Below are positions 50,591 through 54,969 of a stretch of DNA of 64,000 nt, piece after piece. This DNA is from Actinomycetospora lutea (GTDB lineage Bacteria; Actinomycetota; Actinomycetes; Mycobacteriales; Pseudonocardiaceae), in the NCBI RefSeq assembly GCF_028737205.1, contig NZ_JAQZAL010000009.1:62001-126000 (forward strand), given 5' to 3'. The notes under the pieces are model-generated. The model worked only from the letters and a program-made list of their open reading frames with translations. It was not told the DNA's origin and did not search any database. The position numbers and the translations under genes are program-made. Within the stretch, counting starts at the first letter, position 1. Each line of letters opens with the position of its first letter.

Positions 50591-51238
50591 GTGCCGATGA
50601 CCGCGAAGTACGCCACCACGTGCGGGGTCTGCGCCTCCCCCGTCTCCCCCGGCGAGGAGATCGCGCGCGCCGGCGAGCGCTGGGCGCACGCGACGTGCGC
50701 CGGGTCGGCCGGCGCGGCCACGGCCCCGAAGAAGGCCACGACGGCCACGAAGGCCACGAAGGCCGGGGCCAGGGCCACGCCCGCGCGCCCGGACATGCCC
50801 GCCGCCGACGGCGCGCTCGAGGTCTGGACCGACGGCGCGTGCTCCGGCAACCCCGGCCCCGGCGGCTGGGCCTGGGCCACCCGCGACGGACGGCAGGACA
50901 GCGGCGGCGAGGCCGGCACCACCAACCAGCGCATGGAGATCCGCGCCGCCCTCGAGGCCGTGCGCGCCCTCGACGGCCCGCTCGTCGTCGTCAGCGACTC
51001 GACCTACGTCGTGAACTGCTTCCGCGACGGGTGGTGGAAGGGCTGGATCGCGCGGGGCTGGACGACCAGCGCGAAGAAGCCCGTGGTCAGCCGGGACCTC
51101 TGGGAGCCGCTGATCACCCTGGTCAACGACCGCGGCGACGTGTCCTTCCGGTGGACCAAGGGCCACTCGGGCGACGAGATGAACGACCTCGTCGACCGGC
51201 TCGCCGTCGAGCAGTCGAAGGCCGTCGCCGCGACCTAG
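50591..51238 (+). CDS. rnhA: ribonuclease HI with N-terminal zinc knuckle
   Basis: A 215-residue protein. Residues 10-40 hold CGVC..HATC in TTCGVCASPVSPGEE and GERWAHATCAG, a treble-clef-like zinc site. A Lys/Ala-rich linker (residues 44-72) follows, then RNase HI. Catalytic residues are Asp in WTDGACSGNPGPGG, Glu in NQRMEIRAAL, Asp in VVSDSTYVV and Asp after KGHSGDEMNDLVDR. It cuts RNA in RNA:DNA hybrids. The extra zinc domain may aid substrate binding; it is not part of the E. coli enzyme. GTG 50591 fits a leaderless message; ATG 50597 is the alternative. Confidence 0.9.
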   Translation: MPMTAKYATTCGVCASPVSPGEEIARAGERWAHATCAGSAGAATAPKKATTATKATKAGARATPARPDMPAADGALEVWTDGACSGNPGPGGWAWATRDGRQDSGGEAGTTNQRMEIRAALEAVRALDGPLVVVSDSTYVVNCFRDGWWKGWIARGWTTSAKKPVVSRDLWEPLITLVNDRGDVSFRWTKGHSGDEMNDLVDRLAVEQSKAVAAT

Positions 51239-51607: not shown

Positions 51608-52822
51608 GTGGCGGGACGGTCTGAGCCGGTGCTGCGCCCCAGCACCCGCCGCTCGGCCACCACCTTCACCACGGCGTCCTTCGCGTTCGTGGCCGCGTGC
51701 GCCGCGGCCGGCGTGCCCGCCCCGCTCTACGTCGTCTACCAGCAGACCTACGGCCTCTCGACGGTCGTGCTCACCGGCGCGTTCGCGATCTACATCCTCC
51801 CGCTGCTCGCCGCCCTGCTCTGCTGCGGCGGCCTCTCCGACCACCTCGGCCGCCGCTGGATGGCCGTGCCGGCGCTGCTGGCGGGCGCGGCGGGGAGCCT
51901 GGTCCTCGCGACCGTGGACTCGGCGGCGCCGCTGCTCGTCGGGCGGGCGGTGCAGGGGCTCTCGGTGGGGCTCGCGCTCAGCGCGCTGGGTGCGTTCGTC
52001 GTGGACCTGGTCCCGCCCGCGCGGCCGGGGCTCGCGGGCGCGGTGACCAGCGGCGCGCCGCCCGGCGGTATCGCGCTCGGCGCGCTGACCTCGGGGATCG
52101 CGGTCCAGCTCGCGCCGGCGCATGCGCCCGTCCTCGCCTTCGTCGTGACCGCCGCGGTGCTCACGGCCGCCGCGGTGGCGGTGGTGTTCCTGCCCGAGAC
52201 CGTCGCCGGCCGCCCGGGTGCGCTGCGGTCGCTGCGCCCGGTGGTCCGCGTCCCGTCGACGGCCCGCCGGGTGTTCCCCGCGGTCTGCCTGCTCGTGGCC
52301 GGCACCTACGTCCTCGGCGGCTTCACCCAGGCGCTGGCCCCGTCGCTGACGGTGTCCGTGCTCGACGGCGACGGCCTGTTCAGCGGCGCGCTCGCGGTCG
52401 CCGTGTACCACCTCGTCGGGCCCGTGGCCGGGCTCGCCGCGAACCGGACGACCGCGATGCGGGCCCTCGCCGGCGGGGCGGTCGGGCTGGTCGTGGGGAT
52501 CGGCGGCTACATCGCGGCGATCGCGGTGGGCAGCTTCGCCGCGTACCTCGTCGCCGCGGTGGTGGCCGGCGCCGGGTTCGGGGTCGCGTTCGCCGGGGCC
52601 ATGCGGATCCTGCTCGACCGCAGCCCGGAGGGCACGCACGCCGGGACCCTCGCCGCGATCTACCTGTACTGCTACCTGGCGGCCGCGGTGGCGAACCTCC
52701 TCGCCGGCGTGGCGGTCGAGGTCTGGGGCCTCGCGCCGGTCGCGGTCGGCCTGTGCGGGGTCGTCGTCGTGATGGTGGCGGTCGGCGCGCTCGGGGCGGT
52801 GCTGCGGATGCGCCGCGGCTGA
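51608..52822 (+). CDS. MFS transporter
   Basis: A 404-residue, 12-helix permease: TM1 FTTASFAFVAACAAAGVPAP, loop 2-3 GGLSDHLGRRWMAV (motif A), and GAVTSGAPPGGIALGALTSG in TM5. It resembles the YnfM/Bcr-like group; substrate unknown. The start is GTG 51608. A TACCCT -10 box at 51586-51591 would start the mRNA at about 51598, where GTG-ATG opens an eight-codon frame that overlaps this start. Confidence 0.83.
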   Translation: MAGRSEPVLRPSTRRSATTFTTASFAFVAACAAAGVPAPLYVVYQQTYGLSTVVLTGAFAIYILPLLAALLCCGGLSDHLGRRWMAVPALLAGAAGSLVLATVDSAAPLLVGRAVQGLSVGLALSALGAFVVDLVPPARPGLAGAVTSGAPPGGIALGALTSGIAVQLAPAHAPVLAFVVTAAVLTAAAVAVVFLPETVAGRPGALRSLRPVVRVPSTARRVFPAVCLLVAGTYVLGGFTQALAPSLTVSVLDGDGLFSGALAVAVYHLVGPVAGLAANRTTAMRALAGGAVGLVVGIGGYIAAIAVGSFAAYLVAAVVAGAGFGVAFAGAMRILLDRSPEGTHAGTLAAIYLYCYLAAAVANLLAGVAVEVWGLAPVAVGLCGVVVVMVAVGALGAVLRMRRG

Positions 52823-52864
52823 GCGCCCCTGGACGGCGCCCGGGGACCCGGGCAGCCTCTGACC

Positions 52865-53326
52865 ATGGTCGAGGAGCAGGACGCCGGGAGCACGGTCGCG
52901 AGCACCGGCACGGAGGACAGCGTCGCCGTCGCCGGCAGCGTCGACACCTCGCGCAGCGTCGCGGTGGCCGGCAGCGTGGCGACCGTCGGCAGCGTCGGCG
53001 TCGCCCGCAGCGCCGGGACCGCCGGCAGCGTCGCGGTCGCCGGCAGTGCCGCGACCGCGGGCAGCGTCGCGGTCGCCGGGAGCGCGGCCACCGCGGGCAG
53101 CGTCGCGGTCGCCGGCAGCGCGGGCACGGCCGGCAGCGTCGCCGTCGTCGGCAGCGTGCTGACCGTGCTCGGCGCGCGCCTGCGGCTGTGCCTGGCCACG
53201 CTCGCCTGCGTCGACTGCACGCGCTGCGTGGCCTGCGTCGGCTGCGTGGACTGTGTCGACTGCGTGGGGTGCGTCGGGTGCGTCGGCCTGCGCGGCGCGG
53301 TGGGCCTGCGCGGCGTGACCGCCTAG
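52865..53326 (+). CDS. unknown repeat protein: SVxVxG hexapeptides followed by a Cys-x-x ladder
   Basis: A 153-residue protein I do not recognise. Residues 19-103 are 14 consecutive hexads of the form S-V/A-x-V/T-x-G. Odd hexads are mostly SVAVAG and even ones SAATAG-like with Thr at position 4, so the real unit is 12 residues. Residues 115-139 have Cys at every third position (nine in a row, C-V/T-x), with one more at C109. A short LRGAVGLRG tail closes it. A beta-solenoid (Val and Thr ladders) capped by a stack of thiols, for metal or disulfides, is a plausible fold. ATG 52865 lacks a clear ribosome site. The plus-strand frame alone gives such order, which argues that it is coding. Confidence 0.6.
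   Translation: MVEEQDAGSTVASTGTEDSVAVAGSVDTSRSVAVAGSVATVGSVGVARSAGTAGSVAVAGSAATAGSVAVAGSAATAGSVAVAGSAGTAGSVAVVGSVLTVLGARLRLCLATLACVDCTRCVACVGCVDCVDCVGCVGCVGLRGAVGLRGVTA
52919..53173 (+). repeat. imperfect 36-bp/18-bp repeat array encoding the hexads
   Basis: GGCAGCGTCGCGGTCGCCGG-like units recur every 36 bp with synonymous and conservative changes. The periodicity is kept in frame throughout. Confidence 0.8.
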
Positions 53327-53370
53327 TCCTCCCCCCTCAGTCCTCCCTCGGTCCTCCCTCAGTCCTCCCG
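53325..53370. repeat. 11-bp repeat GTCCTCCCTCA, four degenerate copies
   Basis: It spans the end of the hexad/Cys gene and the stop of the acyl-CoA synthetase. Read leftwards it repeats the end of that gene (GGGAGGACTGA), giving extra stops just after the real one. Confidence 0.6.
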
Positions 53371-54969
53371 CAGCGCCCTGCGCAGGATCTTGCCGGTGGT
53401 GGTGCGGGGCAGCTCGTCGAGGAACTCGATGGCCGCCGGCACCTCGTGGGCGGCCAGGCGCGACCGGACGTGCGCGCGCAGCTCGTCGGCCAGCTCCTCG
53501 GACGCGGTGACGCCCGGGCGCAGCACGACGAACGCCTTGGGCACCTGCCCTCGCCGCTCGTCGGGCACCCCGACCACCGCGGCCATCGCGACGGCCTCGT
53601 GCCCGCCGAGGCTCTGCTCGATCTCGCCGGGTCCGATCCGGTAGCCGGCGGAGATGATGACGTCGTCCTTGCGGGACTCGAACCACACGTAGCCGTCGGC
53701 GTCCTGCCGGGCGAGGTCGCCGGTGAGCAGCCAGGTGCCCCGGTACTTCGCGGCGGTCGCCTCCGGGTTGCGCCAGTACTCGAGCATCGTCGAGGGGGTG
53801 CGGCGGTCGAGGGCGAGCTCGCCGACGGTGTCGATCACCGGCTCGCCGTCGTCGTCCAGCACGACGGGCGTGAACCCGGGCAGGCCCTTGCCCAGCGAGC
53901 CCGGGCGGACCGGGTAGACCGAGGCGCAGTTGCCGATGCAGGCGTTGAGCTCGGTCTGCCCGTAGCCTTCGTTCACCGTCGCGCCGAAGAACTCCTCGCT
54001 CCACTTGAGCAGGTCCGCGCCCAGGGCCTCGCCGCCCGAGCAGATGGCGCGGAACGCGAACCCGCCGCCCTCGATCCCCGACGCGCGGATCATCCGCAGC
54101 GCGGTGGCCGGCAGCAGGGTCAGCGTCAGCCCGAACTCGCGCATCAGCCACACCGCCCGCTCGGCGGTGAACGCCGGCTCGCGGTCGACCACCACGGGCA
54201 GGCCGTGGAACCAGGCCGGCACGAGGATGTCCATGATCCCGGCGATCCAGGCCCAGTCGGCCGGCGACCAGATCACGTCGTGCGCCTGCGGGAAGAACTC
54301 GTAGACCGCCTCGAAGGCCGGCAGGTGCCCGAAGACGATCCGGTGGGCGTGCAGCGCGCCCTTCGGGTCGCCGGTCGTGCCCGAGGTGTAGATGAGGAAC
54401 GCCGGGTCCTCGGCCGCGGTGTCCACCGGCGTGAACTCCGGCGACGCCGCGGCGAGCGCGTCCTCGTAGGACTCCGGCCCCTCGCCCCCGATGACCAGCA
54501 ACGGGACCGGCTCGCCGCCGTCGTCGAGCGCCTCGCGCACCCGGTCGGCGTTCGCGGCCGCCGTCACCACGGCCGTCGCGCCGGCGTTGCGCAGCCGGTA
54601 GCGCAGCGCGTCGGGCCCGAACAGCGAGGACAGGGGCAGCGCGATCGCGCCCATGCGGAACATCGCGACGAAGCCCACGCCGGTCTCGAACGAGGCCGGG
54701 CTGACGAGCCCGACGACGTCACCCCGCCCGACGCCCAGCGCCGTCAGCGCGTTCGCGAGCCGGTTCGACGACGTCGTGACCTCGCCGAACGTGTGGTCGT
54801 GCGCGCTGCGGTCCGCCTCGACGATCGTGAGCGCGCGCGCCTGCGGGTCCTGCCGGTCGGCGCACGCCACCCCGAGGTTGAAGCGCTCGGGGATGGCCAG
54901 CGTGGCGAAGTCGACCTGACGCCAGAGCTCGTCGTAGCTCGCGGCCGGACGCAACATCGGCGGTTCCAT
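53359..54969 (-). CDS. AMP-dependent acyl-CoA synthetase (medium-chain type)
   Basis: A 536-residue ANL enzyme. P-loop LIYTSGTTGDPKGALHAHR (about residues 164-182), then NEGYGQTELNACIGN, LTGDLARQDADGYVWFESRK, and the C-terminal lysine in LPRTTTGKILRRALRED. These fit medium-chain or short-chain acyl-CoA synthetases that charge carboxylic acids with CoA. ATG 54969 reads MEPPMLRPAASYDELWRQV and follows a G-rich stretch. The open extension to 55080 overlaps the upstream promoter region. It is divergent from the MHS transporter 201 bp away. Confidence 0.88.
   Translation of the reverse strand: MEPPMLRPAASYDELWRQVDFATLAIPERFNLGVACADRQDPQARALTIVEADRSAHDHTFGEVTTSSNRLANALTALGVGRGDVVGLVSPASFETGVGFVAMFRMGAIALPLSSLFGPDALRYRLRNAGATAVVTAAANADRVREALDDGGEPVPLLVIGGEGPESYEDALAAASPEFTPVDTAAEDPAFLIYTSGTTGDPKGALHAHRIVFGHLPAFEAVYEFFPQAHDVIWSPADWAWIAGIMDILVPAWFHGLPVVVDREPAFTAERAVWLMREFGLTLTLLPATALRMIRASGIEGGGFAFRAICSGGEALGADLLKWSEEFFGATVNEGYGQTELNACIGNCASVYPVRPGSLGKGLPGFTPVVLDDDGEPVIDTVGELALDRRTPSTMLEYWRNPEATAAKYRGTWLLTGDLARQDADGYVWFESRKDDVIISAGYRIGPGEIEQSLGGHEAVAMAAVVGVPDERRGQVPKAFVVLRPGVTASEELADELRAHVRSRLAAHEVPAAIEFLDELPRTTTGKILRRALRED

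Follow-up and report, generated by a model that had tools for sequence, protein, structure and literature searches.

The window, a 64,000-nucleotide stretch of the Actinomycetospora lutea genome, contains a short gene for a repeat protein whose parts are listed in Table 1. The gene lies 42 bases from its upstream neighbour, which encodes an MFS transporter (PF07690, E 3.2e-24), and 32 bases from a convergent downstream neighbour encoding an AMP-binding acyl-CoA synthetase (E 4.2e-64). Two genes upstream, an ORF with an RNase H domain (PF00075, E 1.1e-32) was observed at window positions 50591-51235 (+). The start codon of the repeat-protein gene is backed by relatives with a similarly acidic N-terminus (MAEDQD.., MTEPEG.., MDEHDA..). 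Because no basic residue precedes R30, no Sec signal was evident in the N-terminus of the window protein when the sequence was inspected by eye.

Table 1. The gene and the parts of its product, in window coordinates
Feature	Position	Strand	Description
Whole gene	52865..53326	+	153 aa, ATG start, TAG stop
Residues 1-18	52865..52918	+	Acidic, variable N-terminus; first basic residue of the protein is R30 (by eye)
Residues 19-102	52919..53170	+	14 hexads S-V/A-x-(V or T)-x-G; 12-residue Val/Thr unit
Residues 97-114	53153..53206	+	Uncharged hydrophobic belt joining array to ladder with the phase kept; includes C109 and T112
Residues 115-139	53207..53281	+	Ladder: nine Cys, every third residue
Residues 140-153	53282..53323	+	Conserved C-terminal cap VGLRGAVGLRGVTA

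Translation bore out the earlier note on this DNA, which had described 14 hexads followed by nine Cys residues exactly three apart; the hexads span residues 19-102. The motif that it gave, SVxVxG, captured real hexads but simplified them slightly: position 2 of the window protein is Val or Ala, and position 4 is Val in seven hexads and Thr in seven, in strict alternation. The ladder Cys are residues 115, 118, 121, 124, 127, 130, 133, 136, and 139; a tenth, C109, shares their phase, with Thr112 standing between C109 and C115. When residues 103-153 were shuffled 100,000 times, the longest run of Cys at a step of three was seven, obtained once, against the nine observed.

An alignment of 79 sequences was built from the window protein and 78 distinct relatives, which came from 80 loci. 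The results revealed that C115, C118, C124, C127, C133, C136, and C139 were invariant, that C121 was Cys in 78 of the 79 sequences, and that C130 was Cys in all 77 sequences having a residue there; the Cys spacing is thus kept in homologues, one of the checks that the earlier note had proposed. The cap residues G141, L142, R143, and G147 were also invariant. Total Cys per member ranged from 9 to 15, being odd in 38 members and even in 41. Across the alignment, column entropy was lowest at positions 7, 1, 10, and 4 of the 12-residue unit (0.18, 0.21, 0.43, and 0.45), followed by position 6 (0.57), the others ranging from 0.83 to 1.80. In 11 comparisons with relatives, dN/dS was 0.15-0.45 for the whole gene and 0.14-0.52 for residues 103-153 alone. 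The ORF is under purifying selection at the protein level, and codon statistics, the other check run, support translation of the frame. A spurious frame in low-complexity, high-GC repeat DNA would suit the repetitive sequence and the GC3 of 0.99, but it is refuted for practical purposes by the purifying selection, the invariance of cap residues outside the repeat, and a frame that stays open in relatives down to 54-60% identity.

The window protein stayed below every curated Pfam and NCBIfam cut-off, which upholds its earlier designation as an unrecognised protein, and no paper naming the family was found in the open-access literature searched. A profile search of PDB sequences returned two chains at E <= 10, the best at E 0.042 and reflecting repeat composition. 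The ladder alone returned three chains at E <= 10, the third of which was the Tenebrio molitor antifreeze protein (TmAFP) at a nonsignificant E of 6.9. In an hmmscan of the 79 members, 10 Pfam families were matched at E <= 1, and the sole widespread matches were collagen-like and compositional; no antifreeze or metallothionein model was among the 10. The collagen family PF01391 matched 29 of the 79 members at E <= 1 (best 1.4e-6), the window protein scoring 18 bits against a cut-off of 27.2, although some other member may pass that cut-off on composition. Collagen, a streptococcal collagen-like adhesin, and HxsA all remained below the cut-off for the window protein, and Gly/Ala/Ser composition explains these matches. 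A collagen-like identity was rejected, as glycine does not recur at every third residue: it occupies positions 3, 6, 9, and 12 of the 12-residue unit in 82/487, 393/487, 81/515, and 312/515 cases, respectively. A match to the NCBIfam thiocillin model in one of the 79 members (E 0.0051) was likewise taken as composition.

The phase of the repeat was then compared between the array and the ladder. The ladder Cys were in phase with the array Ser at period 3 in 79/79 sequences and at period 6 in 78/79, and the ladder continued the hexad phase in 17/17 further divergent loci. The 12-residue Val/Thr unit seen in the window protein proved general, with Thr in phase in 455/467 cases and Val/Ile in antiphase in 438/473 (79 sequences). 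At the residue 103 column, Ser (36 sequences), Cys (26), and Gly (17) replace one another, and the residue 112 column holds Cys in 59/79 and Thr in 17/79. Judged from the aligned sequences, the Cys ladder is the same array with Cys replacing Ser at position 1 and Val or Thr at position 4; the description of two halves joined in one protein is thus not supported. An extra triplet ahead of the cap is common in mycobacteria (CVNCSGLRN versus CVGLRG), so the repeat unit of the ladder can be three residues there.

Charged residues were then counted in each phase on unaligned sequences, over a span beginning 72 residues ahead of the ladder and ending 8 residues beyond it. They made up 2/2917 of the class containing Ser, Val, Thr, and Cys, compared with 217/2919 and 316/2919 of the other two classes. 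This exclusion of charge, together with the highest conservation falling on the every-third class, makes a buried core probable rather than an exposed thiol ladder. The thiol ladder of the rod that had been suggested is therefore unlikely to be exposed, given that the Cys column belongs to the class from which charge is excluded and that conservation peaks at the matching sites of the Ser array. The thiols probably form a buried core, with four core sites per 12-residue coil. The array is nearly uncharged (23/4255 residues in columns 43-96), and the belt is without charge at residues 97-104 (0/632) and 109-116 (0/632); R107 is shared by 46/79 sequences, more than any other residue in that column, and column 108 is often charged. 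Outward mean hydropathy was 2.07 for the belt, 1.58 for the Ser array, and 0.77 for the ladder. The outside of the Ser array was more hydrophobic than its inside (1.58 vs 0.68), and this order was reversed in the ladder (0.77 outside, 2.50 inside). Our reading is that this hydrophobic outer side serves for packing; alternatively, it could mean that the Ser array packs differently.

To examine the fold, we modelled two members using AF2. The model of the window protein, computed from the 79-row alignment, had a pLDDT of 76.9 and a pTM of 0.60 (the five models ranged from 56 to 77); almost every hexad contained a strand, and each ladder Cys was followed by a bridge residue. The model of a Mycolicibacterium relative reached a pLDDT of 64.6 and a pTM of 0.43, with ladder blocks at 71-81. 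The same strand pattern was present in both models, which were made from different members. In VIA-align searches, the model of the window protein matched TmAFP first (1ezg_A, Z 8.9, rmsd 2.4, 81 aligned residues, model 15-96). The next row had Z 7.5, and for the second model TmAFP was first of 12 chains (1l1i, Z 6.3, rmsd 3.6, 84 aligned residues, model 55-145, ladder included), a Z under 8 being one that may mark merely a common arrangement. The endpoints of the VIA-align alignment imply an offset of 13, which would set Ser1 against a Ser of TmAFP and Val4/Thr10 against its Cys. This register was not relied on, since the identity at that offset (9/82) disagrees with the 9% over 81 residues given by the tool and since other offsets (11, 12, and 14) were similar. 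Foldseek returned no match at E <= 0.001 for the first model against the PDB or for the second model against BFVD. AF2 is reported to over-predict beta-solenoids for perfect repeats, yielding confident but unrealistic models (PMC11795689). That both models come from repeats which are imperfect and divergent, and which have no charge in the core, eases this worry without removing it. The chain is therefore described here as a predicted beta-solenoid whose nearest solved fold is the beetle antifreeze protein with 12-residue coils. The earlier likeness to 12-residue antifreeze solenoids is thus borne out in prediction, TmAFP being nearest for both models, whereas the likeness to bactofilins was at chance level by sequence.

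Relatives were present in 14/18 Actinomycetospora genomes; the four genomes without a match are >95% complete, indicating that presence is patchy. They were also found in 110/248 genomes of a genus taken to be Mycobacterium, two of which (G637 and G653) match the C-terminal part only, and in 18/200 genomes of the family of the window organism, where 14 matches reach the ladder and four cover hexads only. Across the phylum, 9/396 genomes had a relative, one of them (G430) being the repeat without the ladder, and one distant actinobacterial family had relatives in 17/50 genomes. In the named collection, 138 of the 267 pattern matches encode a relative. Of these, 80 loci were kept: 48 are titled Mycobacterium, Mycolicibacterium, or Mycobacteriaceae, 12 Actinomycetospora, 11 Pseudonocardia, and 9 other. 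The genus with 110/248 was taken to be Mycobacterium because the protein of one of its members (L118, genome G418) is identical to that of Mycolicibacterium rhodesiae (L075). A tblastn search of plasmids and phages gave no match, a weak negative since the low-complexity filter of BLAST was on, and among 259 plasmid blastn matches to window positions 52000-54500 the best 20 lie in the neighbouring acyl-CoA synthetase gene and not in the ORF.

Several variants were observed among the relatives. Divergent members of the distant actinobacterial family (L267, L268, L272, and others of L266-L282) carry basic, Trp-rich tails after the cap (e.g., ...KRRIWKLWRR) and have a longer uncharged Phe/Ala/Val belt ahead of the ladder. 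A mycobacterial/actinobacterial clade (L091, L095, L088, L106, and L115) has a hydrophobic N-terminus with an early Lys (e.g., MLMKLLLAPLSV.. in L091 and L095) that may serve as a signal or anchor; the window protein has an acidic N-terminus instead. Another genus of the order encodes a distinct short repeat protein (L018, G060:C117:21125-21373), which has SIGSVASAG hexads and no Cys ladder.

We further analyzed the surroundings of the gene at 81 loci by using simple gene calls of our own, with cluster names judged by eye. No neighbour was constant: the widest clusters occurred at 18/81 loci, reflecting mycobacterial synteny, and the acyl-CoA synthetase stood at +1 in 3/81. This inconstant neighbourhood fits a stand-alone protein, and metal-related neighbours were not enriched over the 81 loci. 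A RiPP precursor, raised by the Cys-rich C-terminus and conserved tail, was dropped because no neighbour is constant in these loci. We also compared 80 upstream regions of the family with those of 960 other genes for eight patterns in consensus form, six of which sought metal, thiol-stress, or CRP sites. None was enriched; every pattern gave 0/80 except a loose CsoR pattern (2/80 versus 20/960 in other genes).

On the basis of these findings, we propose that the protein is a solenoid rod with a Cys core for metal or thiol handling, a reading to which we assign a probability of about 0.42 and in which the fold is modelled and the metal or thiol function and self-association are what we infer. 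The chain would wind about ten times, with 12 residues per coil, into a short beta-solenoid rod, and hexad positions 1 and 4, that is, every third residue, would face the core. The core of the N-terminal coils would be Ser-Val-Ser-Thr, the same four sites would be Cys in the last three or so coils, and the conserved Gly/Leu/Arg cap would close the rod. Through their nearly uncharged Ala/Val outside, rods could pack laterally with one another or against a membrane. In the Cys core, the closely packed thiols might either coordinate soft metal ions (Zn, Cu(I), or an Fe-S-like cluster) or serve as a redox-active store of thiols, and the gene would work alone in an accessory stress or homeostasis function.

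This reading is the best fit because the protein is stand-alone, patchy, and small, has 9-15 Cys, and, in the case of the window protein, is probably cytosolic, as judged from the lack of an evident signal sequence. It is favoured by the single continuous array (79/79 sequences and 17/17 divergent loci), the Ser/Cys and Thr/Cys exchanges at the equivalent columns 103 and 112, the exclusion of charge from the Cys/Ser class only, the strand pattern shared by two models both nearest TmAFP, and a neighbourhood as inconstant as expected for a stand-alone protein. Odd Cys totals are common, and they count mildly against complete disulfide pairing. Against it stand the over-prediction of solenoids reported for AF2 (PMC11795689), the moderate to low confidence of the models, the failure of Foldseek by itself to find a PDB match at E <= 0.001, and the lack of an enriched metal-related neighbour or regulator motif. 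A Ser array more hydrophobic outside than inside would also be odd for a free soluble protein.

We rank metal or thiol handling ahead of a disulfide-stapled rod, a scaffold or filament, and a membrane-associated protein, in that order. The first of these alternatives, possible though doubtful, holds that the Cys core pairs across coils to stabilise the C-terminal end, with the rod itself as the functional part. The core Cys of TmAFP, the nearest fold, pair across the coil, and the Cys total is even in 41/79 members. Disulfide caps are also reported on the beta-solenoids of fungal ice-nucleating proteins (PMC13288671). The odd totals in the other 38 members, the probable location of the window protein, which has no evident signal, in the reducing cytosol, and the provision of four Cys per coil, more than a simple staple needs, argue the other way.

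Stacking or lateral packing of rods into a bactofilin- or silk-like filament or scaffold, whose assembly the Cys would link or tune, appears rather unlikely. The almost uncharged array with its hydrophobic outside, the wholly uncharged belt (columns 97-104), and the lack of a partner gene at 81 loci are consistent with assembly of this kind; yet conservation is strongest in the ladder and cap rather than on the outer face, and the bactofilin model matches one member in 79. An envelope or membrane-associated protein, its belt embedded in the membrane or resting on it and its tail acting as an anchor, is improbable. The absence of charge from the belt at residues 97-104 and 109-116, its outward mean hydropathy of 2.07, the basic, Trp-rich tails of several divergent members, and the hydrophobic start of the L091/L095 clade point towards a membrane, but R107 and the often charged column 108 break a membrane helix, and the window protein has no evident signal.

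A further reading, which we hold to be speculative and unlikely, is a new kind of metalloprotein: the solenoid interior, and not its surface, would stack about three coils with four Cys each and template a linear thiolate-metal or metal-sulfur chain, with the Ser-core coils as a handle. Such a protein would be found widely in Pseudonocardia, Actinomycetospora, and mycobacteria, and the phage Cys-ladder proteins would be longer relatives or convergent forms. From the models, we rate the family as a putative beta-solenoid with a novel all-Cys core segment. It is an undescribed family present in a large share of the sampled genomes of the genus Mycobacterium (110/248) and in most of Actinomycetospora, and its sequences offer a clean natural experiment: a single solenoid phase is kept while Cys takes over every core site from Ser/Val/Ser/Thr. 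Should the Cys prove to bind metal within the coil, the protein would represent a new route to a metal site and a ready-made scaffold for design; should they prove to be disulfide-bonded, it would be a thiol-capped rod of bacterial origin.

Among known systems, the modelled rod is closest to TmAFP (1ezg, 1l1i), whose Pfam family we take to be PF02420: TmAFP has, and the rod is predicted to have, a 12-residue coil with core residues at every third position and Cys within the core, and TmAFP was the best VIA-align match for both models. In contrast to TmAFP, the 79 members gave no Pfam AFP match and have no Thr-x-Thr ice face, Thr standing at position 9 of the 12-residue unit in 10/515 hexads and at position 11 in 35/515; in most hexads, Ala occupies the sites on either side of the strand centre. 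The outside of TmAFP is polar, whereas that of the predicted actinobacterial rod is Ala/Val, and only in the rod does the core pass from Ser/Val/Ser/Thr into Cys throughout.

Long CxxCxxC ladders are shared by phage Cys-ladder proteins (phrog_15341). All 16 of the A1 members matched the phrog_15341 profile over the ladder at E <= 0.1, the best of them at 6.9e-7, and the profile also matched two phage proteins (2.9e-9 and 6e-13); its match to the window protein (1.5e-4 over residues 110-139) covers 30 of the 276 profile positions and so may be composition. Ten of the 11 viral loci were inspected (all except L141), L138 and L145 being uninformative in the translated frame. The phage ladder proteins L135, L142, L155, L162, L171, L173, and L196 were observed, some with a WxDxNGNxW-like N-terminus, and L135, L162, and L196 end in a 'WHxC..THCRAGW' domain matching phrog_31265 (shown for L162). 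The phage proteins differ from the predicted actinobacterial rod in their N-terminal domains, and they lack the Ser hexad array: among the 68 ladder ORFs in the 80 loci listed (of at least 120 stretches), none carried it, with at most one chance hexad pair. As judged from sequence, they may be either related to the rod or convergent with it.

Bactofilins and left-handed hexapeptide beta-helices resemble the family in their six-residue unit and in the short, rod-like solenoid that is predicted here. Their coils hold three hexads (18 residues), whereas the Val/Thr alternation here has a period of 12, and bactofilin PF04519 matched 1/79 members (E 0.069) and not the window protein at E <= 10. Metallothioneins are likewise small, Cys-rich, and stand-alone, with CxxC-type spacing, but what sets the present family apart from them is its long Ser array and the regular phase of its predicted solenoid. 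The fungal ice-nucleating proteins are also reported to be beta-solenoids closed by Cys, although they are far larger and act on ice, whereas in the window protein the Cys fill about three predicted coils (PMC13288671).
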